37,436 nt of DNA, from the NCBI GenBank assembly GCA_003279455.1, contig QCHU01000012.1:1-37436 (forward strand). Direction: 5' to 3'. The position numbers and the translations under genes were made by a program. This document shows positions 2,008-35,699 of this stretch, one piece after another (the stretch's first letter is position 1; every line of letters starts with the position of its first letter). Source of the DNA: Prochlorococcus sp. AG-402-G19. Its GTDB lineage: Bacteria > Cyanobacteriota > Cyanobacteriia > PCC-6307 > Cyanobiaceae. The notes under the pieces are model-generated. The model ran no database searches, was not told where the DNA came from, and saw only the letters and a list, made by a program, of their open reading frames with translations.

Positions 2008-2730
2008 TTAAGCAATATTATATTCTTCAATTGTAATAATCTTGTTTTTTATTAGGGACTCCAGTAAATATAAATCATGAATATTATCTAAATTAATACT
2101 CTTTATATCTTTCATTATGAAAGGCAAAGTATATTGTGAGAAAAATGAATTGTTTGCATAAATAGAATCTATGTTTGCCAAGTAAAAAGCACCATTTAAT
2201 GCATACACTTTCGGTAAAGATTGTCTTGAAACCATTGATTCGTTTCCTAAATATGATCTAACGTATCCATCTTTAATCACTTGTATTTTATTTGGATGAG
2301 GGTGATCAAAGCTTACTAGACTTACAGAGGAATCGAATTCATTAGATGATTTTTGAAACTCATTAAAGAATGAATTCAAATCAGAAAGAGTTCTTGTAGC
2401 ATTTGTCACTTGTAGAAGCAAAACCATCCCTTCGATAATATTATTTTTATTTAATGAATCTTTTATGACGTCAATTGTTTTAGCTCCATCAGTTGCTAAG
2501 TAGTTAGGCCTTAATGAGGTTTCATTTACTCCATAAACTTTTGCAATATCATACATTTCAATATCATCTGTACTAACAATGACTTTATCTATATGGTCAC
2601 ATAGTAATCCAATTTTTATCGCTCTTTCTAATAATGTATCATTTCCTAATTTATATAGATTCTTTCTAGGTATCCCCTTAGATCCTCCTCTTACAGGAAT
2701 GATTGCGGTAACTTTTTGATTATTTAACAT
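2008..2730 (-). CDS. Acylneuraminate cytidylyltransferase family protein (NeuA/PseF/LegF-like)
   Basis: A 240-residue protein with the family's N-terminal nucleotide-binding loop: IPVRGGSKGIPRKN begins at residue 11, close to the start. The VSTDD motif follows and a conserved QVT/R region sits mid-protein. Enzymes of this family transfer CMP from CTP to a nine-carbon nonulosonic acid (sialic, pseudaminic or legionaminic) or, in some members, to KDO-like sugars, in the cytoplasm. Length is normal. The gene start overlaps the end of the upstream methyltransferase gene by 11 bases, so the two are probably co-transcribed. The specific sugar cannot be read from sequence. A broken pseB-like gene at 19760 hints at a former pseudaminic-acid pathway, but no synthase (NeuB/PseI type) is in the window. 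Confidence 0.85.
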   Translation of the reverse strand: MLNNQKVTAIIPVRGGSKGIPRKNLYKLGNDTLLERAIKIGLLCDHIDKVIVSTDDIEMYDIAKVYGVNETSLRPNYLATDGAKTIDVIKDSLNKNNIIEGMVLLLQVTNATRTLSDLNSFFNEFQKSSNEFDSSVSLVSFDHPHPNKIQVIKDGYVRSYLGNESMVSRQSLPKVYALNGAFYLANIDSIYANNSFFSQYTLPFIMKDIKSINLDNIHDLYLLESLIKNKIITIEEYNIA

Positions 2731-12727: not shown

Positions 12728-12829
12728 CTAAATATCTTTTATGTTCACATCATATTTTAACTTAAGTAATCTTTTTTTTCTAAATTATTTCTTTAACAAT
12801 AACAAGTGAACTAATCTGCAAAATTCTTC

Positions 12830-14008: not shown

Positions 14009-14118
14009 AGGTTTACTAGTCTCTAAGTATTAATAAAAGAATTAATGTCTTTAATATTTATTTTATACGTCAATTGAATAAACGAAATAGGTTGCTAGTT
14101 ATTCTGAAATTTACTTTT

Positions 14119-14727
14119 TCATTTTGAACCTTTGAATGGATCAGTATATGACTTGCTTTTATTATTTATCCCTTCAGGGCGAAAGACTTTAATAAAGGTA
14201 ATAAATAATATCTTCAAATCTAATAAAAAACTTTGATTATGAAAATACTGAATATCATACTCAAATTTTTTTTCCCAACTAATCATATTCCTGCCTGATA
14301 TTTGAGCCAAACCTGTTATTCCAGGTTTTACGGATAAACGAAGAAATTGTTCTTTTGAATATAGAGAACAGTACTCATGTCGCAGTGGTCTCGGCCCAAC
14401 AAAACTAATATCACCTTTTAAAACATTTATTAATGTTGGTAGTTCATCAATTGAGTAGCTCCTAATCCATATACCAAAAGAACAAAGTCTTAATTCGTCA
14501 GGAAGTAAATTATTATTAGAATCATACAAATTAATCATTGATCTGAATTTATAAAGCTGAAATGGGGAGCCTTTAAAACCAGTTCTTTTCTGAATAAAAA
14601 AAATAGGTTTACCCATCTTAATTCTAATAACAACTGCTATAGATAATAAAAAAGGTAAAATTATTACTAATAGCATTAGAGCTAAAATACGATCTACAAA
14701 ACCTTTTAATAATGTATAGTTATTCAT
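14119..14727 (-). CDS. Polyprenyl-phosphate phosphoglycosyl transferase (PglC/WcaJ-C-terminal type)
   Basis: About 202 residues, the minimal monotopic form. An N-terminal re-entrant hydrophobic helix (VDRILALMLLVIILPFLL) is followed by the catalytic core with KFRSM, DELPTLINVLKGDISFVGPRP and PGITGLAQISGR. Such enzymes move a phospho-sugar from UDP-sugar to undecaprenyl phosphate, starting a lipid-linked glycan. ATG 14727-14725 is preferred over the in-frame TTG at 14730 because it overlaps by one base the TGA that ends the upstream glycosyltransferase relic. With the PglF- and PglE-like genes downstream it makes a bacillosamine-lipid initiation set. Confidence 0.88.
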   Translation of the reverse strand: MNNYTLLKGFVDRILALMLLVIILPFLLSIAVVIRIKMGKPIFFIQKRTGFKGSPFQLYKFRSMINLYDSNNNLLPDELRLCSFGIWIRSYSIDELPTLINVLKGDISFVGPRPLRHEYCSLYSKEQFLRLSVKPGITGLAQISGRNMISWEKKFEYDIQYFHNQSFLLDLKILFITFIKVFRPEGINNKSKSYTDPFKGSK

Positions 14728-15160
14728 CAATCTCTTATTATTTCAAAAATAAATTGATTTAGCTTATTCTCATTATATTTTTTCTTAGCCACTTGAAATC
14801 TTTCATATACCATTTTTTCTATTTTTTTTTAGATTTTTCTATAATAATACACCTTGCTTCTGCTAGAAAATTACAATCTTGAAGAGATATAAGATCACCG
14901 TTAAAATAATTAATAAATTTATGTGTAGATCCTAGAAAACCTTTTTCAATTATCAGCCTACCAATTGCCAAAGCTTCTAATTAAAAAAATGGATGACATA
15001 GTCTGTTAAGAGAGGGCACATAGAAATGAAAGCATGAAAACTCTTTCTGAATATTTTCACTAAAGTCTCTATATTCTATTATTACATTTTCAGTCATTAG
15101 ACTTTAAGATTTCTATTATTTGAAGCAGCATCTAAGTCTAAATCTCTAATCATTCTAAAA
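14727..15160 (-). pseudogene. Decayed family-1 (GT-B) glycosyltransferase, C-terminal half
   Basis: Minus-strand fragments in shifting frames spell a GT family 1 C-terminal domain in the right order: RMIRDLDLDAAS (about 15155-15110), a stretch ending FHFYVPSLNR, then EALAIGRLIIEKG with GDLISLQDCNFLAEA, and finally MVYERFQVAKKKYNENKLN ending at TGA 14729-14727. The EALA-I-GR segment is the family's nucleotide-sugar-binding E-x7-E region. Stops and frameshifts occur at A-rich runs (for example near 14830 and 14985). The last frame ends one base into the PglC-like start, showing this was the upstream operon partner, as in pglA-pglC layouts. Confidence 0.6.
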
Positions 15161-15575
15161 ATTAATTTAAGATACTTTTTTTAAACTCTGTTGGGAAATT
15201 TGTAAATTCATTAATGAAATTACAAAATAAAATCCTTAAAACAAAAATTTCTATTTTGACATAGGAATAAATTAAAACATATAGATCCAAACAAAACCTA
15301 CTCATATTCCTGCTTTAAGAGTAGATATTCAATATCTAGAGAAATCTGCTTGATCATTTTTTCTGAACAATTACTTTTCTGGAATTAAATATCATCCAAT
15401 TTGACCTAATTAATAGTCTAAAATTACTTGATACCTAGATTAATAGGCTATAAAAAATCATTTTAAACTTCTAAGATCATAACCTTAAGTAAAGAACTTT
15501 TAAAATCTAATAAAGAGTGTCAAGACAAAAAATAATATTTTCATGGGAACTTATTTGAAAAAAGGATATATTTAA
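15161..15575. other. Non-coding remnant region upstream of the glycosyltransferase relic
   Basis: About 415 bases without an intact ORF. It occupies the place where the N-terminal half of the decayed glycosyltransferase should be, but I cannot recognise it any longer. No hairpin or RNA gene seen. Confidence 0.35.
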
Positions 15576-16937
15576 TTATGGTCTAATAGCATTCATTTCC
15601 CTAGGTATCAAACCTTTTAAATCAAATATTATTGAAAAATGTTTAGTAATACTTCTCCAATCACTTAAGGTCATCTCAATAAAATGCTTATGCGATGTAG
15701 CAAGTATTACTAAATCATATTTCTCATGAAATGGTATATTATTAGTTATATCTATATTATACTCATTTTTAGCCAATTCTATATTAGCAAGTGGATCAGT
15801 TACTTCAACATTTATACCGTATTTTTCTAATTCATTAATCAAATCAATAACTTTTGTATTTCTAATATCAGGACAATTTTCTTTAAATGTAAAACCAAGT
15901 ATCAATGCTCTTGATCCACTAATCATAATTTTTTTTATTGCCATTTGTCTTATGATTTTTTCAACTATCCATCTTCCCATCTCATCATTAACTCTCCTAC
16001 CAGCAAGAACAACTTGTGGATGATAACCAATCTGCTGGGATTTATAAGTTAAATAATACGGATCTATACCAATACAGTGACCTCCCACAAGACCTGGCTT
16101 GAAAGATAAAAAATTCCATTTTGTGTTTGCAGCATCGAGAACATCTAAAGTATCAATTCCTATTTTACTAAAAATTATAGACAACTCATTAATAAGAGCT
16201 ATATTTATATCTCTTTGAGTATTCTCAATTACTTTAGCAGCCTCCGCAACCTTTATACTACTTGTAGAATAAGTGCCAGATTCAATAATTGAACCATATA
16301 AATCATCAACCCAATATTTAACCTTTTCCGTGCTTCCACTTGTGACTTTTACAATGTTAGTTAACTTATGTTTTTTATCTCCAGGATTAATTCTTTCAGG
16401 ACTATAGCCACAAAAAAAATCAACATTAAATTTAAGCATTGACTCTTTCTCAATTATTGGGACACAAAATTCTTCAGTAGCTCCTGGATAAACTGTGCTT
16501 TCAAATATGATCACTGGCTGAGTATTAATAAGACCTTGCTTATTTTGAATTTCTAATATTGATCCTACAAGTCTGCAAGCTTGTAATAAAGGGTTTAAGT
16601 TTGGAACTTTCGAAGAATCAATTGGAGTTGGTACAGTAATAATAAAGACTTCACATTGCACTAATTCAGTTTTTTTATTGCTATACTTTAATTTAGTTTT
16701 TATTAATTCTTCTGTAGATATTTCATTTGTAGTATCAAAATTATTTCTTAATTCATCAAGTCTTTTTTTACTTATATCAAAGCCAATAACATCTCTATTA
16801 ATCTTTAAATGTGTTCTCCTACATAATTGATCTTTAGCAAACTCAATTGCCAATGGCAAACCAACATAACCTAGTCCTATAACAGCAAGATTACAATTCC
16901 ATATATTTGGAAGGTTTGAATGTGAGTTATAAATCAT
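15576..16937 (-). CDS. UDP-N-acetylhexosamine / UDP-glucose-type dehydrogenase (TviB/WbpO-like)
   Basis: A 453-residue nucleotide-sugar dehydrogenase. It has the NAD loop VIGLGYVGLPLA at residues 19-30, the PERINPGDKKHKLTNI segment typical of the TviB/WbpO branch, and the catalytic Cys C288 in GGHCIGIDPYYLT. It performs two NAD-dependent oxidations that turn the C6 alcohol of a UDP-sugar into an acid (UDP-GlcNAcA or UDP-GalNAcA in the named homologues). It overlaps the upstream epimerase gene by 11 bases. The pairing mirrors TviB/TviC in Vi-antigen synthesis. Confidence 0.9.
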   Translation of the reverse strand: MIYNSHSNLPNIWNCNLAVIGLGYVGLPLAIEFAKDQLCRRTHLKINRDVIGFDISKKRLDELRNNFDTTNEISTEELIKTKLKYSNKKTELVQCEVFIITVPTPIDSSKVPNLNPLLQACRLVGSILEIQNKQGLINTQPVIIFESTVYPGATEEFCVPIIEKESMLKFNVDFFCGYSPERINPGDKKHKLTNIVKVTSGSTEKVKYWVDDLYGSIIESGTYSTSSIKVAEAAKVIENTQRDINIALINELSIIFSKIGIDTLDVLDAANTKWNFLSFKPGLVGGHCIGIDPYYLTYKSQQIGYHPQVVLAGRRVNDEMGRWIVEKIIRQMAIKKIMISGSRALILGFTFKENCPDIRNTKVIDLINELEKYGINVEVTDPLANIELAKNEYNIDITNNIPFHEKYDLVILATSHKHFIEMTLSDWRSITKHFSIIFDLKGLIPREMNAIRP

Positions 16938-17955
16938 AAAAATCTTTATACCATTTCACGAAACGACTTACACCTAATCTTATGGGAGTACTAGGCTTAA
17001 AGTCTATCCAAGATTGAAGTAAAGAAGTATCAGCGGCAGTTGCTTTAACATCTCCAGGTTGCATCTCCATAAGTTTAATTTTGGCTTTAATTCCTACACA
17101 GTCCTCTATTGCACTTATATATTCAAATAAAGGAGTTGGCTTTGAATTACCTATGTTAAAAATCCGGTGAGGTGCCCAACTAGTCGCAGAATCTGGAGAC
17201 CTTGAATCAAAATTCTTATTAGGAATAGCTGGTTTATTTATTACACGAAACATGCTTTCTATTATGTCATCTATGTAAGTAAAATCTCTAATCATTTTAC
17301 CTTCATTAAAAACTTGTATAGGTTTATTCTCTAATATCGATTTAGTAAATAAAAACAAGGCCATGTCGGGCCTGCCCCATGGACCATAAACAGTAAAGAA
17401 CCTTAGACCTGTTGCGGACAAGTTATATAGATGACTATAAGAATGAGTCATCAATTCATTAGATTTTTTACTTGCAGCATAAAGGCTAACAGGATGGTCA
17501 ACATTCTGATGTTCAGAGAAAGGTAGATTAGTATTACCTCCGTATACCGAACTACTACTAGCGTAGACCAGATGTTTAACTCCAAAGTTGCGACACCCTT
17601 CAAGAATAAATCCAAACCCAACAAGATTTGATTTAATGTAAGACAGAGGATTCTCTATCGAATACCGCACTCCGGCTTGAGCGGCAAGATTAACAACTAT
17701 ATCAGGCTTAAATCTTTCAAATACACCACGAATAGCGCTTTCATCCGCAAGATCTGCATGAACAAATTCAAACAGGTTTTTATTATTTTTGTTTATAGAA
17801 TTCTTAGTAATATCTTCTAGTCGAGCCTTCTTTAACTTAACATCATAGTAGTTATTTAGATTGTCCAACCCAACCACGAATGATCCATGTTTTATTAATC
17901 TTTTAGTTAAATGATAGCCAATAAAGCCAGCAGCACCAGTAACTAATATAGTCAT
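16927..17955 (-). CDS. NAD-dependent UDP-sugar epimerase (UDP-glucuronate 4-epimerase type)
   Basis: A 342-residue extended SDR. It starts ILVTGAAGFIGYHLTKRL with a GxxGxxG cofactor loop, carries DNLNNYYD after strand 2, the catalytic YAASKKSNE (Tyr-x3-Lys), and RFFTVYGPWGRPDMA. The last motif is characteristic of CapI/LpsL-like UDP-glucuronate 4-epimerases. It inverts C4 of a UDP-uronic acid. The product of the coupled dehydrogenase gene would be a fitting substrate, so the pair likely makes a galacturonate- or GalNAcA-type building block for the surface glycan. Confidence 0.9.
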   Translation of the reverse strand: MTILVTGAAGFIGYHLTKRLIKHGSFVVGLDNLNNYYDVKLKKARLEDITKNSINKNNKNLFEFVHADLADESAIRGVFERFKPDIVVNLAAQAGVRYSIENPLSYIKSNLVGFGFILEGCRNFGVKHLVYASSSSVYGGNTNLPFSEHQNVDHPVSLYAASKKSNELMTHSYSHLYNLSATGLRFFTVYGPWGRPDMALFLFTKSILENKPIQVFNEGKMIRDFTYIDDIIESMFRVINKPAIPNKNFDSRSPDSATSWAPHRIFNIGNSKPTPLFEYISAIEDCVGIKAKIKLMEMQPGDVKATAADTSLLQSWIDFKPSTPIRLGVSRFVKWYKDFYDL

Positions 17956-18327: not shown

Positions 18328-19167
18328 TTAATCTTTTTGATAAAGTCTAAACTCTAAAGACACCCTTGTTGTGTCTTCATTGTTGTTAATACCTAACCCA
18401 TGGATTAAATGAGATGAAAATATGAGCATTTCGCCTTCAGATGGAGTCATTAATCTTAGGAACGATTTATCTCTCCATGATTTTATACAATTTACAGAAA
18501 ACTTTCTACCATCAATAATTACACCATTTTTAGTTCTAATTATCTCAGACTCTTTGATAAGATGTGATCCTGGAACTATACCAAGGCCAGCATTTTTATT
18601 AACTCCACAAATTGGTATCCAAGAATTGACCATCCTAGGAACAAATTTATCTTCATCGTAAAATCCATAAATATCCTTGTGAACTGGATTGTATCCAACT
18701 GAATTTGGAATATTTATTCTAGCTATTACCCAGTGGATAAAATCACTCCCTTTAGGAGAGTAGCTAAGCCGAACTTTTAAAATACTTTCTAAAAAGTCAA
18801 TAATCTGACGATCAGGAAAGTCAACATCCTGCAAATATAATCTTTTTGCTCTCTTATTAATTTCTAGATTCTGCTCATAGTTAACAAAATAATGATATTT
18901 TTCTAATGTAAATCCATTCAGATCAATAGCAGGGTAGGTTTTATTGATTATTTGCTTTATATGCTCTCCAACAGCATTCTTAAGTAAATTAAAATTAATT
19001 TGTTTTTGAAAATCAACTACTTTATAGCCATCTTGATACCAGTCCAAATCTGAAATCACATCGAAGAACTCCCTACTCAGGCAAATATCATCTCCTTTAA
19101 AGAAAACAGTATTATCTAAGGCCTCAATCTCAACTTTAGTTTCATCAATTAAATATGCAAGTTTCAT
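18328..19167 (-). CDS. Phytanoyl-CoA dioxygenase-like Fe(II)/2-oxoglutarate oxygenase
   Basis: A 279-residue protein with a cupin-type facial triad: H163-x-D165 (PVHKDIYG) and a distal H256 (LIHGLG), with an Arg ten or so residues later (TRVSLEFR) placed to bind 2-oxoglutarate. The segment NAGLGIVPGSHL between them is a hallmark of PhyH-like enzymes. It probably hydroxylates a small molecule or glycan precursor, using iron, oxygen and 2-oxoglutarate. It is a single-gene unit with 372 empty bases downstream and 592 upstream. Substrate unknown; the neighbourhood suggests a surface-sugar modification. Confidence 0.78.
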   Translation of the reverse strand: MKLAYLIDETKVEIEALDNTVFFKGDDICLSREFFDVISDLDWYQDGYKVVDFQKQINFNLLKNAVGEHIKQIINKTYPAIDLNGFTLEKYHYFVNYEQNLEINKRAKRLYLQDVDFPDRQIIDFLESILKVRLSYSPKGSDFIHWVIARINIPNSVGYNPVHKDIYGFYDEDKFVPRMVNSWIPICGVNKNAGLGIVPGSHLIKESEIIRTKNGVIIDGRKFSVNCIKSWRDKSFLRLMTPSEGEMLIFSSHLIHGLGINNNEDTTRVSLEFRLYQKD

Positions 19168-21748: not shown

Positions 21749-22212
21749 AAAAGAACTTGATTTTAATATATTTTAAATGCTAAAAGGGAGAATTTAAGTT
21801 TATTCCTAAAATTATATATATTTTAAATATCTAGTGATCACAATAGTATTTTCATATCCTCTTGCATATAGTTACATTATTTTTATTTATCTTGAAGCTA
21901 GACTCTATAAAATATAAATTTATCGATATTGAAATCACTGCAGAGCAAGGTAAAATCAGCTCTACTTATAACTGCATTCCTAAAATACCTAAGAATGTTT
22001 TCAAATAATTATTCATCATAGTTATTATTAAAAAATATCGAGTTTAATCATAGATGTCAAAAATGTTTTTTGAAATTTCACATTAGGAGAAGAGTTAGAG
22101 TTATGTATTCTTTCTATCTAAGTGCACTAACTTTTCCACTAAATTTATCTATAAAGGTTTAATACCTTTGAGAATTAGGCCCTAAGTCAGTTGTGTAAAT
22201 GTTTTTGAAGGA
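21749..22212. other. Intergenic region left of the tRNA-anchored element
   Basis: 464 A+T-rich bases. A plus-strand open stretch without a start codon (about 21847-22008), ending CIPKIPKNVFK, is protein-like and may be a relic. No promoter or terminator is convincing. Confidence 0.3.
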
Positions 22213-22285
22213 TGGAGCCAAGCGGACTCGAACCGCTGACCCCCTGCATGCCATGCAGGTGCTCTACCAGCTGAGCTATGGCCCC
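22213..22285 (-). tRNA. trnA(GGC): tRNA-Ala (anticodon GGC)
   Basis: A complete 73-nt cloverleaf on the minus strand, 5' end at 22285. The 5' acceptor strand GGGGCCA pairs with TGGCTCC, including the G3:U70 wobble that defines alanine tRNAs, and the discriminator is A (22213). The anticodon stem CCTGC/GCAGG encloses a loop ATGGCAT with anticodon GGC at 22252-22250. The T arm GGTTCGAGTCC is normal. CCA is not encoded. Bases 22247-22285, the 5' half up to tRNA position 39, are repeated exactly at 36570-36608. This marks the gene as the attachment site of the element to its right. Confidence 0.97.
22247..22285 (-). repeat. Attachment-site repeat, left copy (inside intact tRNA-Ala)
   Basis: 39 bases covering tRNA positions 1-39, identical to 36570-36608. 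Flanking bases differ on both sides, so the identity ends exactly at the tRNA 5' end and just past the anticodon. Confidence 0.85.
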
Positions 22286-22302
22286 ATGCGTGAGTTTTAC
22301 TA

Positions 22303-22751: not shown

Positions 22752-23747
22752 ATGGCAATATCAACAATCACATTTAAGGGGGCTATAGATTCTGTAGTTT
22801 GGAAACATCCAGAAAGTAATATTACTATTGGTTCTCAGCTAATCGTCAATGAAACGGAGGTAGCTCATATTTTTGAAAATGGTCAATTACTTTCTACTCT
22901 TCAAGCAGGAAGACATACTATTGAATCAGGTAATATTCCTGGATTAGAAGGATTAATTGAAAGAGCTTTTAATAATAGAACTCCAATAATAGTTGAAATT
23001 TGGTTCTTCAAAAAAATAGCTGGCTTCGATTATAAATGGGGAGCTCAGATTCCAGTAGTAGATAAACAAACAAAATTAGCGATTCCATTGGGTGCAAGAG
23101 GAAGTTATTCATTAAGAATTAAAGATCCAATGTCATTCATGTTGCAAATGGTTGGGACTGAAAGTTCTTATACAAAAGATCAAATTAAAGCAAATCTATT
23201 AGATAATGTTATTAGGAACCTAAAAGACTATATAAGTGAGGAAGTTCAAAATAAAGGTTCGGACCCATTTACATTAACTACAGAAATTAAAGAGATTTCA
23301 GAAGGGGTTAAAAAATCACTAACTAATGATTTCGCAAGATTCGGGCTTGAGTTAATAGATTTTTTTGTAATCGGTATTGATGTAATCAGTGAAAATCCAG
23401 AGGTTCAAAGGATTATGAAATTGCGAGGTTTCAGAGCTGACGCAGATTTTTATAAATTGGAGAGAAGTTTTGATGCACTTAACAAAGCTGCGGAGAATGA
23501 AGGTGGATTAGCAGGAACTTTTTTATCAGGAGGATTAGGCCTTGGGCTGGGAATGAATGCTGGCCAGCAGATGGGCCAGGCAGTCAGTCAATCTACTAAC
23601 ATTAATGGAAACAATAGTCAGCAAAATTCTCAATCTAGCGAGGACATAACGTCTAAACTTAGCAAGCTTAAATCATTACTAGATGCAGATTTAATAACTA
23701 AGGAAGATTATGATATGAAGAAATCAGAGTTATTAAATTCACTTTAG
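22752..23747 (+). CDS. SPFH-domain protein with C-terminal SHOCT domain (YdjI/virion-core-like)
   Basis: A 331-residue protein of the YdjI-type SPFH (stomatin/flotillin-like) family. The N-terminal half has the characteristic VVWKHPESNITIGSQLIV start and the GARGSYSLRIKDP strand region. A helical segment with EVQRIMKLRGFRADADFYKLE (about 217-238) follows, then a Gly-rich linker (GGLGLGLGMNAGQQMGQ) and a Gln/Asn/Ser-rich stretch. A SHOCT domain ends the protein (about 298-331, ITSKLSKLKSLLDADLITKEDYDMKK). SPFH proteins form large rings or scaffolds on membranes. There is no transmembrane helix, so attachment is presumably through the next gene's membrane protein. It is first in a four-gene operon with gaps of 20, 0 and 1 bases. 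Confidence 0.85.
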   Translation: MAISTITFKGAIDSVVWKHPESNITIGSQLIVNETEVAHIFENGQLLSTLQAGRHTIESGNIPGLEGLIERAFNNRTPIIVEIWFFKKIAGFDYKWGAQIPVVDKQTKLAIPLGARGSYSLRIKDPMSFMLQMVGTESSYTKDQIKANLLDNVIRNLKDYISEEVQNKGSDPFTLTTEIKEISEGVKKSLTNDFARFGLELIDFFVIGIDVISENPEVQRIMKLRGFRADADFYKLERSFDALNKAAENEGGLAGTFLSGGLGLGLGMNAGQQMGQAVSQSTNINGNNSQQNSQSSEDITSKLSKLKSLLDADLITKEDYDMKKSELLNSL

Positions 23748-23767: not shown

Positions 23768-24400
23768 ATGAAACGTCGTCTTTTTGGTATTACATGGTTA
23801 CCCCTTTTAGCCTTTTGGGCTTTCCTACTGGCCTTAGCAAATGGAAGAAACTTTAATGTCTCTGGTTTTTATATTCCATTTTTAATTTATGCACTAACAT
23901 CTTCTGTGTTCATTTCTTTAGCACAAAAAGAGCTTTCTGAAAGGGTTGAATTCGCAATATCTGGAATTTCTAGGTTAAACAGTATTTTGCTTTGCCTATT
24001 TATATCTTCGATAATTATTCTATTAAATACACTTACAGGCACTAACAATGGAGCAAATCAAATATGGGCTTCAATTCTTATTTTAATTCCGCTGATAATT
24101 AATTTTATTATTTATTCTCTGGTTGATTATCAGCAAGAACAACTAACTACTGGTTTTGATTCTAGAAGTAAAAATAGAAATCAATCACTTTTAGTGATTA
24201 AAGATTGGGAAGAATATTTGCTATCTTTGAGTAAAACATATAAAAACAATGACATTCTAATTACAGAAATTGAACGAATTCAAAATATTATTAATTATAG
24301 TTCATTTTTCCGTTCAACAGAATCTAAAGATCTACTTAATAGAATAAAATCGAGCTCAAATATAAATGAATTATTGGATTTATTCTCTGAAGTAAAATAA
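23768..24400 (+). CDS. Four-helix membrane protein of the SPFH operon (YdjH-like position)
   Basis: A 210-residue protein. Two hydrophobic hairpins are visible: about residues 8-24 with 34-50, and about 75-93 with 102-118. A soluble helical C-terminal tail of about 90 residues with charged heptad-like spacing follows. I recognise no enzyme motif. It sits between the SPFH gene and the zinc-ribbon membrane protein gene with almost no spacing. In Bacillus subtilis ydjGHI, a membrane protein, a zinc-ribbon membrane protein and an SPFH protein occur together. The likely role is a membrane anchor or partner for the SPFH scaffold; this is inference from context. Confidence 0.7.
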   Translation: MKRRLFGITWLPLLAFWAFLLALANGRNFNVSGFYIPFLIYALTSSVFISLAQKELSERVEFAISGISRLNSILLCLFISSIIILLNTLTGTNNGANQIWASILILIPLIINFIIYSLVDYQQEQLTTGFDSRSKNRNQSLLVIKDWEEYLLSLSKTYKNNDILITEIERIQNIINYSSFFRSTESKDLLNRIKSSSNINELLDLFSEVK

Positions 24401-25759
24401 ATGAAATCATACAAATGTTGTGTTTGTGGTGCTGCTTTAGAAGTATCGGAGTTCACTACTGTAGCTATATGTGATTATTGTAATGCTAAAACTGATCTAG
24501 AAAGAAGTGATTTAAAGAAACTAGATGATAATGCAGATCAAATTTCATTAGCAGAATACTCGAAACAAATAAATCGAGCAGCAGAGTATTTTGAAGAAAA
24601 ACTATATTCTAGTGCTTTTGACATTTATCAAAAGTTAAAAGTATATACAAATTCAAATATCAAATTTAATTCTTATTATTCAATTTATAAACTTTGCAAT
24701 GATTATCAATCGTACTTTTTAAATTCAGCATATCCTCAGTGGGAATCAGCATGTGATAATTCTGGTAATAATTTCTATGAAGATTACAAATCAATGGATT
24801 TCACGAAAATTCATCTAGATTATGAGAATTGTTTAGAAGATTGTGAGCAGTTAATTGCAAAGTCTGATCATAAAACAGCTCTAGAATATGCTGAAGTTAT
24901 TATTATGGGCTTAACTAAAGTAGAGGAAATTGTAACTGAATCATTGGATCATTTTCTGCATGAATATTCATTTAAATATGAGCTTGACATTACATATTAC
25001 GAGGGAGATAAAAGAGTTAGCGAGATATACCACAAAAACAAACAAGCAGAAAAAGTTTTCATAAGGATTGCAGCAGACTTTCTTGTTTTTCATAATAAAA
25101 TTTATGTAAGGTTAATAGACGGAGGGTGGAAATCTCCTAAAGAATTCAAACAAGCTGAATTTGACCATATATATAGTTTCTTAAATTATTTTAAAAAAGA
25201 TAAGAAAGTTCCTAATACAATTGAGTATTTCAAATTAAATAGAAAGTCTAATGTCTTTCTAGCTTCTAAATATAGTCTGGCATCTTTTACTGATGAATTT
25301 ATCGAAGATTTTTATGATTATAACTTAATAATTGACCCTACTTGCAAAAATCCATTAGGCTCATCTTTAATATTTGATAAGCTTTGTAATTATAATTTGA
25401 AAATTAAACAATTTGCTAATAAATATGTTGAGCAAGGTCTAATTTCTTCTGATTTCGTAGAATCATATCTTTATGATATTGATTCAATGAGAGATGATGC
25501 ATTAAAAATCAGGAAGTTTTATAGATATGGTTTGTTGTTCGTTGTTCCAGTTACAATTTTATTATTTTCTACTGAATCTATACCAATAGGAGCTAGTTTC
25601 TTTACTATTGGTTGGATCATCTCATTTATATATGGTACAGCTAAAACAGAAAAGATTCATAAACGTATAAAGTCATTATATGCAACCACATCAAGGGATA
25701 TAAGATTACAAGCAAGTAGGGAAAGACACAGGAAGAACACTAACACAAATTTTAGTTAA
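24401..25759 (+). CDS. Zinc-ribbon membrane protein of the SPFH operon (YdjG-like position)
   Basis: A 452-residue protein. The N-terminal zinc ribbon has C6/C9 and C24/C27 (two CxxC knuckles). A long helical, possibly repeat-like region with many aromatic residues (about 50-365) follows, then two transmembrane helices near 375-391 and 395-415, and a basic tail. ATG 24401 directly follows the TAA of the preceding gene. The ribbon faces the cytoplasm if the two helices form a hairpin. No catalytic motif seen. By neighbourhood it fits an adaptor linking the SPFH scaffold to the membrane and to the Hsp70 chimera encoded next. Confidence 0.75.
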   Translation: MKSYKCCVCGAALEVSEFTTVAICDYCNAKTDLERSDLKKLDDNADQISLAEYSKQINRAAEYFEEKLYSSAFDIYQKLKVYTNSNIKFNSYYSIYKLCNDYQSYFLNSAYPQWESACDNSGNNFYEDYKSMDFTKIHLDYENCLEDCEQLIAKSDHKTALEYAEVIIMGLTKVEEIVTESLDHFLHEYSFKYELDITYYEGDKRVSEIYHKNKQAEKVFIRIAADFLVFHNKIYVRLIDGGWKSPKEFKQAEFDHIYSFLNYFKKDKKVPNTIEYFKLNRKSNVFLASKYSLASFTDEFIEDFYDYNLIIDPTCKNPLGSSLIFDKLCNYNLKIKQFANKYVEQGLISSDFVESYLYDIDSMRDDALKIRKFYRYGLLFVVPVTILLFSTESIPIGASFFTIGWIISFIYGTAKTEKIHKRIKSLYATTSRDIRLQASRERHRKNTNTNFS

Positions 25760-25760
25760 T

Positions 25761-27923
25761 ATGAATAAAAGAAAAGAATCAAGCTCCTCTTCTTCCATAG
25801 ATTGCATATTTGGTATCGACATAGGAGAGTCTTATTGTTCTATAAGTACTTTTGAAAATAATAGACCAGTCCTGCTTGCAAAAGCTACATACGACAAACC
25901 TTTGTCTTATCAAAATATCACAATAGAAGAAATCAACTTTATATCTTTACTTGACCCTGATGATATTAATTATAATGAAAATTATAACTCTTTTATTACA
26001 GTTTTAAACTGGTGTAAATCAATTCTTGAAAAGACATTTCCTGAATATAAATTTAATAAATTTAAATGTTGTTTATCAATACCAAGCTTTCTTAATTCAC
26101 CTAGTAAAATAAATCTAAACAATGAAAGTCTTTCATTGTTTAGTATAAAAGAAGTATTTAATAATTCAGGATTTGAAATTATAAGATCCCTCGACAAGTG
26201 TAGTGCTTTTGCTTTAACTGATGAAATAACAATTCTATCAGACTGCAATATTTTAATTCTGGAATTTGGTACAAACTATTTGGAAGCATTATCGCTTTCT
26301 CCTTCACATGGAGCTATAGAAATACTCTCAAAATCTAGTAGTTATTTAGAACGAGATGATATTGATCTTCGTAAAAAAACGATAGCAAATTTGATAAACC
26401 ACGTTAGTAATCAGGGTCAAGTAGTTGTTCCATCAGATAAATATGATTATGTTCTAATTAATTCTGCATCCCTAGATCCAGATGAATTGAAGGAAATCGC
26501 TACGAGTACAAAAAGCACTGTAAAAAGTATCACTGTTTTAGAAGATGCTTGTGCTAAGGGTATTGCTCAACAGGCAGCAATACTAGATGGTAAACAAAAA
26601 GAAGTACTACTACTTGATCTCGCATCATTTAATATTTGTTTTAAACAAGGGAATCAATCTTCATATATTTATTATAAGAAAGAGACTATTCCAAAAAAAG
26701 TTTCTAAACTGATAGTCTTAGATGAAAAAATAAAATTTTTAGATATCTTTCTTGATTTTCCTATATTTAAATCAAATGTATTAGGAAGTTATAATAATAA
26801 AATCACTAGAATTGATTTAGAAAGTGTTTTCAATAAGGAGTTTTCATCTTTATTTTTCGAATTAGATATTAAAACTAATGGTGATTTGAGTTTAAACTTT
26901 AATAAAGAAAAATATATTGAAGATATAAAGCCTAAAGACCAATTTAAAAGTAATTCTGAATTAAAAAATATCAAGAGTCTTTCAAAGCAATCATTAGCTT
27001 CTTTTCCTCTTTTCGCTTTTTCCTTATGTTTTGGAGGATTAATATTAGGTTCAATATTTGATTACTACAATAATAAGTCAAACAAAGTTAGGAGCTCATT
27101 CCAGTCACAAAATCAGTTCAGAGAAAAAGATTCTAATTCAAGACCATTGGGGTTTAATTATTCAAGCAGTAACTTTGATGAAAATATTCCAGCTGGATCA
27201 ACAGTTTCAATCTTAAGCGCCATAGATAATGATGCTAATGATAACCATACTTTTTCTTTAATTGATGGATACAATCAAAGCGTTGGTAATAAATTTTTTA
27301 CTATTGTTGGTAATAAACTGAAGATTAAACAATCTCCTGATTATGAGGACAAAAAAGATTACACAGTTGTAATTCAAGTTACTGATTCTAAAGGTTTAAG
27401 TTCTGAACCTAAATATATGTCCTTAACAGTTAATAATTTAAACGAAAGATCTATTCCCAATAATAATGTTCAGTCCATAAATGCAGATGAACTTTTTATC
27501 AACGCTATAAAAAAATATAGAGATAATGATTATTACTCTGCAATCAGTGGTTTTCAAGAGGTAATAAGATTTGATCCTAGTTGCTATAAATGTTTTTATA
27601 ATATTGGCCTTTCTCGAGTGAACCTTAAGCAATATCAAGCTGCAATACTTTCATTTAATAAAACAATTGAGTTGAACCCAAATTTTCTTCCTGCATATAG
27701 GCAGAGAGGGCAATCTAAATTTATTTTGAAGAATTATAATTCAGCAATAAAAGATCTTAACTATGTGATTTCATTAAATAATAAAGACATATCTGCTTTG
27801 AATGTTCGTGGATATGCGTATTTGATGCTTGAACAACCCTCTAACTATTGTCGTGATTTTAGTTCTAGTGCTTTTCTCGGCGATAAATATGGAAAGGAAA
27901 ATTATCAGAAATTTTGTGAATAA
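25761..27923 (+). CDS. Hsp70-like ATPase fused to TM segment, cadherin-like domain and TPRs
   Basis: A 720-residue chimera. Residues 9 to ~280 follow the DnaK nucleotide-binding domain in order: FGIDIGESYCSIS (phosphate 1), CCLSIPSFLNSPSK, IIRSLDKCSAFAL, ILILEFGTNYLEAL (phosphate 2, with Glu for the usual Asp), and LEDACAKGIAQQAAIL (the helix after the adenosine loop). The GGSTR-type adenosine loop is replaced by NSASLDP and subdomain II is shortened. EVLLLDLASFNICFKQ from about 283 to ~395 matches the start and strands of the DnaK beta-type substrate-binding domain. A membrane helix lies at about 411-436, a cadherin-like domain at 464-560 (NFDENIPAGSTV, IDNDANDNHTFSL, DYEDKKDYTVVIQVTD), and TPRs from ~575 to the end. 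I infer a cytoplasmic chaperone half and an external sensor/binding half. It ends the SPFH operon. Confidence 0.85.
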   Translation: MNKRKESSSSSSIDCIFGIDIGESYCSISTFENNRPVLLAKATYDKPLSYQNITIEEINFISLLDPDDINYNENYNSFITVLNWCKSILEKTFPEYKFNKFKCCLSIPSFLNSPSKINLNNESLSLFSIKEVFNNSGFEIIRSLDKCSAFALTDEITILSDCNILILEFGTNYLEALSLSPSHGAIEILSKSSSYLERDDIDLRKKTIANLINHVSNQGQVVVPSDKYDYVLINSASLDPDELKEIATSTKSTVKSITVLEDACAKGIAQQAAILDGKQKEVLLLDLASFNICFKQGNQSSYIYYKKETIPKKVSKLIVLDEKIKFLDIFLDFPIFKSNVLGSYNNKITRIDLESVFNKEFSSLFFELDIKTNGDLSLNFNKEKYIEDIKPKDQFKSNSELKNIKSLSKQSLASFPLFAFSLCFGGLILGSIFDYYNNKSNKVRSSFQSQNQFREKDSNSRPLGFNYSSSNFDENIPAGSTVSILSAIDNDANDNHTFSLIDGYNQSVGNKFFTIVGNKLKIKQSPDYEDKKDYTVVIQVTDSKGLSSEPKYMSLTVNNLNERSIPNNNVQSINADELFINAIKKYRDNDYYSAISGFQEVIRFDPSCYKCFYNIGLSRVNLKQYQAAILSFNKTIELNPNFLPAYRQRGQSKFILKNYNSAIKDLNYVISLNNKDISALNVRGYAYLMLEQPSNYCRDFSSSAFLGDKYGKENYQKFCE

Positions 27924-28104: not shown

Positions 28105-28599
28105 TTAAACTTTTTCTTTTTCTTTTTCTTCGATATCTTCGCTGTCAGCTTTTAAGAAGATTGCCATTGTAGCCAATGAAGCCACATTAAAGCCTAGCAA
28201 TCCTATTAGTAGTTTTCCTTGGATATTTGAACGAGTATTCTCTAGCCTATTAAATGAGTCAGCATAAAGCCTAATTTTGTACCCAACGACTTCATATAGT
28301 ACGTCATATTCTTTTAAAGGATATTGTTCTAATAACTTCAATTCATCTTTGGTTTCTTTAGAAACATATTTAAGGCAATAGTCTTTTATATTGATCAAAT
28401 CAAGAACTTTTGGCCGGTCTTCATAAGGAAGACCATCTAGATTATTATAAGAAAATATTTTTTGGAGATTAGATTGTCTACAGTGTGATATTAGTATATT
28501 TTCATTCTCATAAGATAATAATTTTTGACCAACTAATATACCTAAAAATGCAAAAGAAAATGAAATTAGAAGTGGTTTAACTTTTGGTAAGATTTTCAT
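28105..28599 (-). CDS. Two-helix loop membrane protein B
   Basis: A 164-residue protein. An N-terminal signal-anchor helix (about 11-29) is followed by ~100 residues of polar loop with two cysteines (C39, C73), a second helix (about 129-150), and a short acidic/lysine-rich tail of alternating E and K. The topology is N-in, large external loop, C-in, as in sensor or scaffold proteins without an enzymatic domain. It starts one base after the stop of the neighbouring gene and shares its topology. The two gene products probably act together. No family recognised. Confidence 0.65.
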   Translation of the reverse strand: MKILPKVKPLLISFSFAFLGILVGQKLLSYENENILISHCRQSNLQKIFSYNNLDGLPYEDRPKVLDLINIKDYCLKYVSKETKDELKLLEQYPLKEYDVLYEVVGYKIRLYADSFNRLENTRSNIQGKLLIGLLGFNVASLATMAIFLKADSEDIEEKEKEKV

Positions 28600-28600
28600 T

Positions 28601-29362
28601 TTAATTTACCTCCTTTATTCCTGTAATAATATTATTGTTAAGTGTATCTATGATCGCAACAAGGAGGAATAAACCAATTTCAGAAAAGACTAAAACTAGA
28701 TAAGCAGTATTTACATTTTTCATAATATCAGGAATTAAAGTCGAAGATTTATTTTTCATTTCTATCCATTGATCAATATCCTTATATAGGATATTGATTG
28801 AACTTATTAAATTTTTATTGCTTGAATTATAATTAGATAATGAGTATTTTTTATTCAGAGCTAATTCAATATACTGAGATGCATTACTAATTTTTTGTTC
28901 TTTTGCTTCTTGAAAAGACAAATCAAATGATTTTTTAGCAACAATATCGGTCTGCTTATATAAGTAAGACATAATATCGTACAAAGGTTCTTCTTTTGAA
29001 AGACCTAGAGTTTCAGTAAATGCAATTTGATAGTCTTTTACTCTATTTCTTATTTGTATTAAAGATGTAAAATAAGTCTCACAATTTGATGGAAATGAAG
29101 ATTTGCAAATTAAATAATTTCTTTTTAGATCTGCAATGGTGCTAATTTGATCTGTTGCAGATGAGGTTTGCAATGCATCTAAGGCTTCTACATTTTTAAT
29201 TGAACTTGATAGTTTATTTTGTGTGTAGGAGAAAAAGAATGAATTAATACCAAAAATACTAGTCAAGGCAAGAGAAGTTAAAACTAACCTTTCAACTGTC
29301 CTATGTCGTTTTGACCCTTCCTTGAATTTATGTACTTTCCTAGGTTTTTTATTAATGTTCAT
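28601..29362 (-). CDS. Two-helix loop membrane protein A
   Basis: A 253-residue protein with a strongly basic first ~25 residues, an N-terminal helix (about 27-48), a ~165-residue external region predicted mostly helical, a second helix (about 221-242) and a short cytoplasmic tail. The arrangement resembles the four-helix-bundle input domains of chemoreceptor-like sensors, but no signalling domain follows. It is the first gene of a two-gene minus-strand unit converging on the SPFH/Hsp70 operon. No family recognised. Confidence 0.65.
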   Translation of the reverse strand: MNINKKPRKVHKFKEGSKRHRTVERLVLTSLALTSIFGINSFFFSYTQNKLSSSIKNVEALDALQTSSATDQISTIADLKRNYLICKSSFPSNCETYFTSLIQIRNRVKDYQIAFTETLGLSKEEPLYDIMSYLYKQTDIVAKKSFDLSFQEAKEQKISNASQYIELALNKKYSLSNYNSSNKNLISSINILYKDIDQWIEMKNKSSTLIPDIMKNVNTAYLVLVFSEIGLFLLVAIIDTLNNNIITGIKEVN

Positions 29363-29517: not shown

Positions 29518-29955
29518 ATGTCCAACTTGCTTAACCATACTCAAAGAATCTTAGGACTATCTTTCTTCCTCTTGACTATTACTAGCGTAGAGCTAGTAAA
29601 GGCTGATGACTGTTTAAAATCAGTTAAAAACAATATTGTTAAATGGTCTATATCAAAAATCCAATCAAGTGAAATGGCAAATGTAAGTTCATTTAGCTGT
29701 AAGGAAGCTAAAGAAATGAATAAAATGGACGGTGATCAAATTTATATTACTAGTGGCAGAAAAAGAGGAAAAGCAACAATTTGTTTGAGTGATGAAAAGA
29801 GTTATCCTTGCAAATTTGTTATTGGATTTATTAATACAGAATTTGACTCAGCAACAGCACTTTCTGAAATATATTCATTCACCCCGCCTAAGTCTTCACA
29901 ACTAAACGAAACTGTAGAGAGATTATTTCTAAAACCTTCTTCGCTTATTCAGTAA
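29518..29955 (+). CDS. Small exported protein with four cysteines
   Basis: A 145-residue protein with a clear signal peptide: a hydrophobic core at about 11-24 and probable cleavage after A29 (LVKA-DD). The mature part has four cysteines (C32, C61, C89, C98), which could form two disulfides in the periplasm. RKRGKATICLSD and YPCKFVIGFI are the most structured-looking parts. No known family. It is divergent from the two-helix protein unit (155-base gap), so the two may share regulation. Confidence 0.65.
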   Translation: MSNLLNHTQRILGLSFFLLTITSVELVKADDCLKSVKNNIVKWSISKIQSSEMANVSSFSCKEAKEMNKMDGDQIYITSGRKRGKATICLSDEKSYPCKFVIGFINTEFDSATALSEIYSFTPPKSSQLNETVERLFLKPSSLIQ

Positions 29956-31671: not shown

Positions 31672-32648
31672 ATGAGACTAAGAAATCAAGCAGTTGCGCT
31701 TGCTTTGTCTCTTCTACCCATAGGACAAACCTTCTTATTGGGAACAATCACTGCTTCAACAGCAGTGGTTGTTCTCTCTGCATCTTCTGCGCAGGCAAAG
31801 AAGGCATCAGAAATTGCCAATATCTCTAAACGAATCACTGTTCTTATAGAAGGTGTTCAGGGTGGATCAGGCGTTTTAATTAAACGAGAAGGCAATCGAT
31901 ATACAGTTTTAACTGCTTGGCATTGTGTAAAAGATATCCGTAAAGGAGATGAATTAGAAATTAATACTCCCGATGGCAAATGGCATCAAATAGATACAGG
32001 AAGCATTAAGCGCATTGGCAAAGTCGATCTCGCCGTGTTCACATTCTCTAGCAATAAGTCATATAAAACTGCATCTATTGGTGAAATAAAAAACATCTCC
32101 ATGGGTGATCCTATTTTTGTCTCCGGATTCCCATTGGCATCTTCTTCTGTTCCAACCAGATTACTGCGCTTTCTTAAAGGAGATGTGATTGCCAACGCAA
32201 CGGTTGACATTCCTGATGGATATCAACTCTTATATACCAATCCAACGCTTCCTGGAATGAGTGGCGGTTCAGTTTTGAATACTCAAGGGAAATTAGTTGG
32301 CATACATGGACGATCAGAAAGAGATGATGAAGTCAGCAACAAAACAGGTAAGGCAGTTTCAACTGGAACAAACCAGGCAGTTCCTATTGCTTTCTACAAT
32401 CTTTTTAACCAAAACAAAAAAGTAGTTGCTTCTAATTCAAAAGCAACCAGTGCTGATGACTACTTGGCAAAAATAGGAGCAATTCTAGAGGTAAAAGGTA
32501 AAGAAAAAGAAGTTATACGTCTTGCGAATAAATCACTAGCAATCAAAGAAACAGCAAAAGCATATTTTTATAGTGCTTATGCAAAGACAGTGTTAGATAA
32601 TGCTCAAGGGGCAATTACTGATTACACAAAAGCAATAAATATTGATCC
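31517..32648 (+). repeat. 1.13-kb direct duplication, copy 1
   Basis: Matches 33522-34649. As far as I can read, it is identical except that the A-run before the gene is 19 long here and 15 in copy 2. It includes ~155 bases of leader, the start codon, signal peptide, whole protease domain and the first TPR up to IDPK. Identity stops abruptly after ATTGATCC. Confidence 0.9.
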
Positions 32649-33450
32649 AAAAGTAGCGGGAGCTTATTACAATCGTTCTTTCATATATCAAACTAAAGGG
32701 AATATCAAAGCTGCGATATCTGACCTCAACAAAGCAATAGAACTTAATCCAGAAATGCCTGATGCATTTAACAACAGAGGCATAATAAAAAAAGATTCAG
32801 GTGATATTAAAGGAGCTCTAATCGATTTCAAAAATGCAATAAAAGTAAATCCTTCCTATCCAAACTCATACTATAATAGGGGCTTAATTAGACAGAGTTC
32901 AGGGGATTACCAAGGGGCATTTGATGATTACACAAATGCAATAAATAATAATAATGAGTATTCTAGTGCATACCTTAATCGTGGTATAATCAGACTAAAT
33001 TCAGGAGATAGTTATGCTGCAATAACTGATTTTAATAAAGCAATTAATTTGAATCCGAATAAATATTTAGCTTATAATAACCGTGGAGCTGCTAAAATGA
33101 ATTTAGGAGATAATTATGGCGCATTAAATGATTTCAACGCTGCAATAAAGATTAATCCACATGACACAAGAGCATATTTTAATAGAGGACTTCTTAATAC
33201 GAATCTAGGAAAGAACGAATCAGCAATTGATGATTACACAAATGCAATAAATAATGACCAGAAAAATGCAGATGCATATATTAATCGAGGTATCCTGAGA
33301 TTAAATCTCGGTAATAGAGGAGGACCATTAGCAAATTCTTACATAAAAGGCGCTTGCTTTGATCTCAAGAAAGCTGCATCTTTGGGGCATAAAGGAGCAC
33401 AACAGGCTTTAAAAAGCCCAAAGCGTGCATGGTGTACAAACATGAGATAA
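31672..33450 (+). CDS. Exported trypsin-like serine protease with C-terminal TPR array
   Basis: A 592-residue protein. A signal peptide with probable cleavage after A42 (SSAQA-KK) precedes a trypsin-2/Deg-like protease domain (about 50-250) with the triad H84 (TAWHC), D119 (VDLAVF) and S197 (PGMSGGSV). A linker is followed by about eight TPRs from ~290, and a Cys-containing cap CFDLKKAASLG ends the array. The protease should act in the periplasm or at the cell surface, with the TPRs binding partner proteins or substrates. There is no PDZ domain, unlike Deg proteases. The first ~325 residues are repeated exactly in the next gene. A 19-base A-run lies ~60 bases upstream of the ATG and may affect promoter spacing. 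Confidence 0.92.
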   Translation: MRLRNQAVALALSLLPIGQTFLLGTITASTAVVVLSASSAQAKKASEIANISKRITVLIEGVQGGSGVLIKREGNRYTVLTAWHCVKDIRKGDELEINTPDGKWHQIDTGSIKRIGKVDLAVFTFSSNKSYKTASIGEIKNISMGDPIFVSGFPLASSSVPTRLLRFLKGDVIANATVDIPDGYQLLYTNPTLPGMSGGSVLNTQGKLVGIHGRSERDDEVSNKTGKAVSTGTNQAVPIAFYNLFNQNKKVVASNSKATSADDYLAKIGAILEVKGKEKEVIRLANKSLAIKETAKAYFYSAYAKTVLDNAQGAITDYTKAINIDPKVAGAYYNRSFIYQTKGNIKAAISDLNKAIELNPEMPDAFNNRGIIKKDSGDIKGALIDFKNAIKVNPSYPNSYYNRGLIRQSSGDYQGAFDDYTNAINNNNEYSSAYLNRGIIRLNSGDSYAAITDFNKAINLNPNKYLAYNNRGAAKMNLGDNYGALNDFNAAIKINPHDTRAYFNRGLLNTNLGKNESAIDDYTNAINNDQKNADAYINRGILRLNLGNRGGPLANSYIKGACFDLKKAASLGHKGAQQALKSPKRAWCTNMR

Positions 33451-33521: not shown

Positions 33522-34649
33522 TTCCCTAGCACGACACTGGGACTCTATGGATCTTTCTTGATGAGTCAAAAGATGGGATCAAGTTGAAATTTATTTGCAA
33601 AAAAAAAAAAAAACGACTCTCTAGAAAGGTCTCAACTGAACTAGATTAGATATCAAATCTAGAAAGGTTTCTATGAGACTAAGAAATCAAGCAGTTGCGC
33701 TTGCTTTGTCTCTTCTACCCATAGGACAAACCTTCTTATTGGGAACAATCACTGCTTCAACAGCAGTGGTTGTTCTCTCTGCATCTTCTGCGCAGGCAAA
33801 GAAGGCATCAGAAATTGCCAATATCTCTAAACGAATCACTGTTCTTATAGAAGGTGTTCAGGGTGGATCAGGCGTTTTAATTAAACGAGAAGGCAATCGA
33901 TATACAGTTTTAACTGCTTGGCATTGTGTAAAAGATATCCGTAAAGGAGATGAATTAGAAATTAATACTCCCGATGGCAAATGGCATCAAATAGATACAG
34001 GAAGCATTAAGCGCATTGGCAAAGTCGATCTCGCCGTGTTCACATTCTCTAGCAATAAGTCATATAAAACTGCATCTATTGGTGAAATAAAAAACATCTC
34101 CATGGGTGATCCTATTTTTGTCTCCGGATTCCCATTGGCATCTTCTTCTGTTCCAACCAGATTACTGCGCTTTCTTAAAGGAGATGTGATTGCCAACGCA
34201 ACGGTTGACATTCCTGATGGATATCAACTCTTATATACCAATCCAACGCTTCCTGGAATGAGTGGCGGTTCAGTTTTGAATACTCAAGGGAAATTAGTTG
34301 GCATACATGGACGATCAGAAAGAGATGATGAAGTCAGCAACAAAACAGGTAAGGCAGTTTCAACTGGAACAAACCAGGCAGTTCCTATTGCTTTCTACAA
34401 TCTTTTTAACCAAAACAAAAAAGTAGTTGCTTCTAATTCAAAAGCAACCAGTGCTGATGACTACTTGGCAAAAATAGGAGCAATTCTAGAGGTAAAAGGT
34501 AAAGAAAAAGAAGTTATACGTCTTGCGAATAAATCACTAGCAATCAAAGAAACAGCAAAAGCATATTTTTATAGTGCTTATGCAAAGACAGTGTTAGATA
34601 ATGCTCAAGGGGCAATTACTGATTACACAAAAGCAATAAATATTGATCC
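33522..34649 (+). repeat. 1.13-kb direct duplication, copy 2
   Basis: Second copy of 31517-32648, beginning at TTCCCTAGCACG in the space after the first protease gene. The encoded first ~325 residues are identical to copy 1. Confidence 0.9.
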
Positions 34650-35631
34650 CAAGTCATCGAATGCATATACCAATCGAGGAACAGTTAAGAGTGAACTGTT
34701 AGGAGATTATGAAAGTGCAATTCTTGATTTAAATAAAGCAATAAAGATTGATCCTCTGAATGCTGATGCCTATAACAACCGAGCGTTTATCAAGTATCAG
34801 TCAGGTGACAATTACGGAGCGATTAAAGACATTAACAAAGCTATCGAAATAAACCCGCGGCACAAAGGTTACTACATCAATCGTGGTCGGGGTAAACTGA
34901 GTTTAGGGGACAATCAAGGGGCCTCTGATGATTACACAAAAGCAATAAAGATTGATCCTCTGAATGATATTGCCTACCACAACAGAGGGATTAGCAAGAG
35001 AGAGTTAGGTGACAATTACGGAGCGATTTAAGACTATAATAAAGCTATCGAAATAAACCCGCAGGTGAGCAAAAGCTATTACAATCGTGGTGTTTCTAAG
35101 GGTGAATTAGAAGATTATTCAGGTGCAATTGCAGATTACACAATGGCAATAAAGATTAATCCTGAGTTTGATTATGCTTATATCAATCGTGGCTTTATTA
35201 AACAGACTTTAGGGGATACTCAAGAAGCAATTGCAGATTACACAATGGCAATAAAGATTGAGCCTCTGAATGCTGATGCCTATATCAATCGTGGGTTGGC
35301 TAAGAGTAACTCAGAAGATTATTCAGGTGCAATTGCAGATTACACAAAGGCAATAAAGATTAATCCTGAGTTTGCTAAAGCCTAGCTCAATCGTGGGCTT
35401 GCTAAGAGTAACTCAGAAGATTATTCAGGTGCAATTGCAGATTACACAAAGGCAATAAAGATTGACCCTCTGTATGCTGATGCCTATGCCAACCGATCCA
35501 CACCCAGGCTTAGACTGGGTGATAGAGAAGGATCGTGTTCTGACATGAAGAAGTCAGAATCTCTAGGTAATCAAAGAGTTACACAATTTCTAAACAGCTC
35601 AAAGGGTGCATGGTGCAGAAATATGAGATGA
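33673..35631 (+). pseudogene. Second trypsin-like/TPR protease copy, interrupted by two in-frame stops
   Basis: Same signal peptide, triad and first TPR as the 31672 gene, then a different TPR array. TAA at 35029-35031 interrupts GAI-DYNKAIEINP, where the parallel repeat at about 34822 has AAA (Lys). TAG at 35383-35385 stands where other repeats have TAT (Tyr). Reading through both, the same frame continues to TGA 35629-35631 and ends SKGAWCRNMR, like the intact copy (PKRAWCTNMR). The original protein would have had about 651 residues. The part before the first stop (452 residues, complete protease plus five or six TPRs) could still be made and exported. Two 102-bp tandem units (from 35290 and 35392) are nearly identical, so the array has recently expanded. 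Confidence 0.85.
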
Positions 35632-35699
35632 AAAAATTAGATTTTATTCCTGATTAATTAGAAACATAAAATTGATAATTGAAAATTCACTTGTTCTTT

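Follow-up and report, generated by a model that had tools for sequence, protein, structure and literature searches.

A Prochlorococcus SPFH operon ending in a protein best read as a membrane-anchored pseudo-Hsp70

Introduction

The question raised by this locus is what a 720-residue protein comprising an Hsp70-like N-terminal half, a membrane helix, a cadherin domain and TPR repeats does in a picocyanobacterium, and in particular whether its Hsp70 half can still operate as an ATP-driven chaperone. The stretch of DNA analysed (the window) is the whole 37,436-nucleotide contig C12 of Prochlorococcus sp. AG-402-G19, whose draft genome comprises 1.28 Mb, is divided into 45 contigs and is 67% complete. 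The earlier note on this DNA described a chimera joining a cytoplasmic chaperone-like domain to an external adhesion or sensing module, a layout for which a limited literature search found no described protein. The reading preferred here is that of a pseudo-Hsp70 anchored in the membrane, and the best clue to the protein's function is the four-gene operon in which it is encoded, a setting absent from the earlier note.

Domain architecture of the 720-residue protein

The gene is a single uninterrupted frame from ATG to TAA that occupies exactly the span given in Table 1; no long frame is found on the opposite strand of that span, and a search for a frame error joining two genes, the circumstance that would have undone the proposed chimera, disclosed no break. 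The layout, with an Hsp70 nucleotide-binding domain (NBD) and beta substrate-binding domain (SBD-beta) followed by a transmembrane (TM) helix, a cadherin domain and TPRs, is borne out by Pfam, a DnaK hidden Markov model (HMM) and hydropathy, and this architecture is well supported.

Table 1. Position in the window of the operon genes and of the parts of the 720-residue protein.
Feature	Coordinates	Strand	Evidence
SPFH protein, 331 aa, operon gene 1: Pfam Band_7_1 (17-223), C-terminal SHOCT (302-328)	22752..23747	+	Pfam 1e-27; SHOCT 1.9e-6
Multi-TM protein TMP3, 210 aa, operon gene 2, conserved SPFH partner in relatives	23768..24400	+	Homologs, E 1e-14 to 1e-35, adjoining SPFH gene
Zinc-ribbon protein, 452 aa, operon gene 3: N-terminal CxxC...CxxC, C-terminal TM segments	24401..25759	+	Sequence
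Pseudo-Hsp70-TM-cadherin-TPR protein, 720 aa, operon gene 4	25761..27923	+	Frame and Pfam
Reduced actin-like (Hsp70 NBD) domain, residues about 14-281; IB and IIB collapsed, ATP-site residues lost	25800..26603	+	HMM, DnaK alignment, structure model
Hsp70 interdomain linker VLLLD, residues 282-286, retained	26604..26618	+	DnaK alignment
SBD-beta-like domain, residues about 287-383, no alpha-helical lid after it	26619..26909	+	Pfam, HMM, alignment, model
Transmembrane helix, residues about 411-433 (SLASFPLFAFSLCFGGLILGSIF)	26991..27059	+	Hydropathy
Cadherin domain, residues 471-557, calcium-type motifs DENIP, DNDANDN, PDYE, VTDSKG	27171..27431	+	Pfam 1.1e-6
TPR repeats, residues about 577-690, C-terminal tail with cysteine	27489..27830	+	Pfam and locus comparison

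Pfam HSP70 (PF00012) matches the protein at 1.8e-5 with 23.6 bits against a cut-off of 20.6, the alignment covering only residues 261-318, and the same stretch scores 20.3 bits, just below that cut-off, in a genome-wide six-frame scan. An HMM made from 39 DnaK/Hsp70 sequences of the fetched loci gives 24.3 bits, as compared with 2.7 bits for the best among 200 shuffles, through three colinear blocks: (i) residues 16-42, (ii) residues 132-221, and (iii) residues 262-377, corresponding to DnaK 4-30, 157-245 and 364-480 and spanning phosphate-1, connect-1/phosphate-2, and linker to SBD-beta, respectively. In addition, the full alignment shows 18-22% identity to 37 DnaKs over 415 residues. Given the HMM score relative to the shuffles together with this identity, the homology is real, and residues 16-383 comprise a very divergent Hsp70 NBD and beta substrate-binding domain that stand in Hsp70 order and are joined by a VLLLD-type linker; the DnaK-order motifs that the earlier note had recognised in both parts are confirmed by the colinear blocks.

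Structure prediction agrees with this assignment, the modelled fold being Hsp70-like and not an unrelated one. AlphaFold2 run without an alignment gives a model of low confidence (pLDDT 33), whereas the 37-DnaK alignment raises it to pLDDT 65.5 and pTM 0.64, values that are partly circular since the alignment itself carries the DnaK signal. Hsp70-family structures dominate the 50 best PDB matches listed by Foldseek for the alignment-based model, with a best E of 2.3e-18 for a DnaK match. The model from the single sequence, built without any DnaK, matches the alignment-based one in helix and strand at 87% of the assigned residues, against a mean of 28% and a maximum of 42% for circularly shifted secondary-structure strings.

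Beyond SBD-beta the alpha-helical lid is absent, the chain reaching within about 30 residues the single hydrophobic helix of the protein, after which Pfam detects one Cadherin domain (PF00028; 29.3 bits against a cut-off of 28.8) and TPR_1 (PF00515; 6.6e-12); HSP70 and Cadherin thus both exceed their Pfam cut-offs, and the replacement of the lid by a membrane helix, a cadherin fold and TPRs stands as first described. The relatives of the cadherin domain, 50-58% identical, are repeats in large secreted repeat proteins of the same genus. The proteins inspected comprise 880-1523 residues, and three of them share a C-terminal motif, which we take to be DUF4214-like and typical of secreted proteins. 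The charges on the two sides of the TM helix are balanced and do not fix the topology; nevertheless, since the protein displays no N-terminal signal sequence and the cadherin domain is of an extracytoplasmic type, its N-terminal half likely lies in the cytoplasm and its cadherin/TPR part outside. An adhesive role for the outer part, one of the two first suggested, is not indicated, the protein containing only one cadherin domain set in an SPFH membrane operon.

The ATP site

The residues of the ATP site were compared through the DnaK alignment of the protein. The equivalents of Asp8 and Gly371 are kept (D20 and G267), as is one phosphate-2 glycine (G170), the GGGT motif having become GTNY (170-173) with the loss of two glycines. 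On the other hand, Thr11 and Thr12 are replaced by E23 and S24, Glu171 by K146, the phosphate-2 Asp194 by E168, Thr199 by Y173 and Asp201 by E175, whereas Lys70 is deleted together with most of subdomain IB. The adenosine loop GGSTR reads NSASL (234-238), and the adenosine-helix residues Glu267, Lys270 and Ser274 are unconserved (a gap, N210 and H214) because subdomain IIB has collapsed. The set of Hsp70 ATP-binding and catalytic residues (Thr11, Lys70, Glu171, Asp194, Thr199, GGGT and GGxxR) is therefore not present. Two spans of the nucleotide domain are shortened: phosphate-1 to connect-1 comprises 89 residues versus 135 in DnaK, and phosphate-2 to adenosine (lobe II) 66 versus 143, whereas SBD-beta keeps its length (85 versus 86).

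The altered adenosine loop, the Glu in place of the phosphate-2 Asp and the reduced subdomain II had all been remarked upon in the earlier note and are present; a reading of the N-terminal half as a working ATPase is, however, unsupported, nearly all nucleotide contacts being lost or replaced. Judged from the alignment, the Hsp70 half has probably lost its ATP engine, and an Hsp70-type ATP cycle is very unlikely given the loss or replacement of the ATP-site residues and the shortening of IB and IIB. Compared to DnaK/Hsp70 (PF00012), the protein thus displays the same motif order, VLLLD linker and SBD-beta, a Pfam score above the cut-off and a like predicted fold, but departs in its destroyed ATP site, collapsed IB and IIB, missing lid, identity of about 20%, membrane anchor and extra outer domains.

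The SPFH operon and its exchangeable position

The gene is the last of a flotillin-like operon with the order YdjI-type SPFH, multi-TM, zinc-ribbon/TM and pseudo-Hsp70, the intervening gaps being 20, 0 and 1 bases. The zinc-ribbon part of the third product bears weak similarity to ribbon proteins of related loci (E 1.7e-4). The operon displays three features of the YdjGHI type, namely (i) a Band_7_1 SPFH gene, (ii) a linked zinc-ribbon membrane protein, and (iii) a second membrane protein. In Bacillus subtilis, YdjI is encoded together with pspA, ydjG and ydjH, and the membrane proteins YdjG/H are required to bring PspA to the membrane (PMC8581546), the pspA-ydjG-ydjH-ydjI system having been surveyed more widely (PMC11237479). 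The present operon resembles this system (PMC8581546; PMC11237479) in combining a Band_7_1-type SPFH protein with two membrane proteins, one of which bears a zinc ribbon, but no pspA is found among its four genes, its SPFH protein ends in SHOCT and not in a zinc ribbon, and it includes a pseudo-Hsp70 protein that the B. subtilis operon lacks. Among the control genomes, B. subtilis also yields a match to PF13421, the family to which the SPFH protein belongs.

Homologs of the SPFH protein (E<=1e-10) occur in 37 of 400 family genomes, and most neighbourhoods with a close homolog display a TMP3-type gene directly after it. The genes that follow include (i) zinc ribbon-TM-TPR proteins after SPFH-TMP3 in loci L061, L130 and L132; (ii) a zinc-ribbon DUF4234 protein and others after the SPFH-TM pair in the congener G008; and (iii) a small TM gene other than TMP3 directly after SPFH in L062 and L063, followed by a second TM protein and a short zinc-ribbon protein. 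The TPRs of L061, L130 and L132 give the best matches to those of the 720-residue protein among the loci compared (1e-18 to 1e-28, values that the repeats may inflate). These three operons preserve the same core and the same N-domain-TM-TPR plan, whereas their N-terminal domain is a zinc ribbon, not an Hsp70, and they contain no cadherin domain; this Hsp70 domain was found in none of the 400 family genomes. Because the relatives keep the SPFH-TM pair and differ in the following gene, gene 4 occupies a place in the operon at which the next membrane partner is swapped, and its inner domain is an Hsp70 remnant, not a zinc ribbon. On the far side of the operon, the three flanking genes are kept in G008 at 65-78% identity.

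Several features of these neighbourhoods are recorded besides. Zinc-ribbon-TM proteins with varied C-terminal parts (TPR, DUF4234, unknown) cluster around picocyanobacterial SPFH-TMP3 operons (L129 6446-7096, L130, L131, L132, L133, L136 and L137) and apparently form a diversifying partner family. The three far-side genes of the window, all small, at 28105-28599, 28601-29362 (-) and 29518-29955 (+), include two with TM segments and have the same order in G008 (L129). A tRNA-Ala gene at 22210-22286 (-), 466 bases upstream of the SPFH operon, might mark the edge of a variable island; a tRNA-linked island was nevertheless set aside, since ARAGORN detects none in the corresponding part of G008, and tRNAs are only scattered in some of the other loci.

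Proposed role

An explanation of the whole, to which about an even prospect is given, is that the 720-residue protein would be a bitopic, ATP-independent peptide-holding adaptor of a YdjI-type SPFH membrane complex. Its cytoplasmic half would be a degenerate Hsp70 whose actin-like core no longer binds or hydrolyses ATP in the Hsp70 manner, nucleotide binding in another pocket being possible, and whose VLLLD linker still joins the dead nucleotide domain, as a putative platform or docking surface, to the lidless SBD-beta. The latter would constitutively hold a peptide segment of a partner, perhaps the tail of the operon's SPFH, TM or zinc-ribbon protein, or of a membrane-protein client. The TM helix would carry this contact across the membrane to the calcium-type cadherin domain and the TPRs, which may bind an outer partner, the protein acting as a tether or sensor, and not as a folding machine, by which the SPFH assembly might be placed at certain sites of the membrane or during envelope stress, positioned or triggered from the outer side. 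More tentative, with prospects somewhat short of even, is the broader proposal that an SPFH adaptor spanning the membrane carries a catalytically dead Hsp70 as an exchangeable module on its cytoplasmic side, in place of the zinc ribbons of related operons, and that a peptide-holding domain within the cell is thereby coupled to a calcium-type cadherin/TPR sensor outside it.

Ssz1 of the yeast RAC offers a likeness, since this Hsp70 has no ATPase activity and serves within a complex, where its SBD holds a segment of the partner as a pseudo-substrate (PMC9197937); nevertheless, Ssz1 still binds nucleotide, is ribosome-bound, and contains no membrane helix, cadherin domain or TPR. If the adaptor reading is true, an Hsp70 fold entirely deprived of its ATP cycle can be put to new use as a membrane adaptor, the locus gives a means of learning how YdjI-type SPFH assemblies acquire partners on the two sides of the membrane in bacteria with very small genomes, and the loss of the ATP site with linker and SBD-beta kept constitutes a natural test of the beta domain without nucleotide control.

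Relatives of the Hsp70 half and alternative explanations

Searches with the N-terminal half returned only DnaKs or nothing in about 600 family genomes and 390 overlapping class genomes, and no relative in genome_contigs, viral contigs, phages or plasmids; sought in other genomes as the earlier note had advised, the Hsp70 half is a singleton among the family genomes. As no relative was found by which selection might be measured, this half could be decaying, the gene being a recent non-functional fusion in which an Hsp70 fragment came to stand ahead of a TM-cadherin-TPR gene and its ATP site drifted away. The singleton status, the strong divergence of the Hsp70 half and a neighbouring gene broken by in-frame stops (33673-35031) are consistent with such decay, which is nevertheless considered unlikely: the 720-codon frame is intact and starts one base after the preceding operon gene, and drift alone is unlikely to favour a pattern in which linker, SBD-beta length and core glycines are kept whereas active-site residues are lost.

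Three candidate relatives were set aside, the partial matches in L072 and L075 being due to chance and L081 displaying a normal DnaK core. The latter (496-3279, genome G429) is a 928-residue frame encoding a DnaK in which ATPase and SBD-beta are intact and a long C-terminal domain of a different kind takes the place of the lid. The same genome as the window encodes, on contig C28 (L100 1772-3439), an Hsp70-like protein of 555 residues with intact ATP motifs and a divergent substrate domain.

The protein could also belong, as a sensor or partner module, to a conflict system (anti-phage or other) carried by a variable genomic region, given that the locus is variable and patchy in the family, that the neighbouring trypsin-TPR genes weakly match LmuA and RT-protease models, and that Hsp70 and TPR parts are known in described conflict systems (PMC7159879). 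This is held to be improbable, since PADLOC matches none of the four operon genes, the LmuA matches fall largely on the generic trypsin domain, and the operon is without an effector enzyme.

A functional membrane-anchored Hsp70, recruited by the SPFH complex and cycling on membrane clients with a remodelled site that binds ATP, would account for the retained D20, G170, G267, VLLLD linker and SBD-beta. The loss or replacement of Lys70, Glu171, Thr11, Thr199, two phosphate-2 glycines, the adenosine-loop Gly-Gly/Arg and the IIB adenosine helix, together with the absence of J-domain and GrpE genes among the window families scanned, makes it distinctly improbable.

Small IB and IIB subdomains are a trait of simpler actin-like proteins, and the Hsp70 likeness might in principle reflect the shared actin fold only, the protein being a polymerising or docking scaffold of the FtsA, PilM or MreB kind. 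The homology nevertheless runs through the Hsp70-specific linker into SBD-beta, and Pfam gives HSP70 and no FtsA, PilM or MreB family, which leaves this reading very little probability; to our knowledge, actin-like ATPases other than Hsp70 have no beta substrate-binding domain. An assembly or frame artefact joining two genes, to which the fragmentation of the draft genome would lend itself, is scarcely credible in view of the single open frame, along which GC3 is uniformly low (0.17-0.27), the recurrence of the X-TM-TPR plan in the operon gene that follows in other genomes, and the flanking genes that match G008 in order.

Other features of the window

Two tandem trypsin-TPR genes are encoded at 31672-33450 and 33673-35665 (+), the second of which is broken by two stops in its own frame, TAA at 35029-35031 and, farther along, TAG, with TPRs continuing in that frame. 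At 18328-19167 (-), a weak match to TIGR04324 (2OG-Fe(II) oxygenase of sporadic carbohydrate clusters) stands in a region where surface-sugar genes abound (10811-17955).
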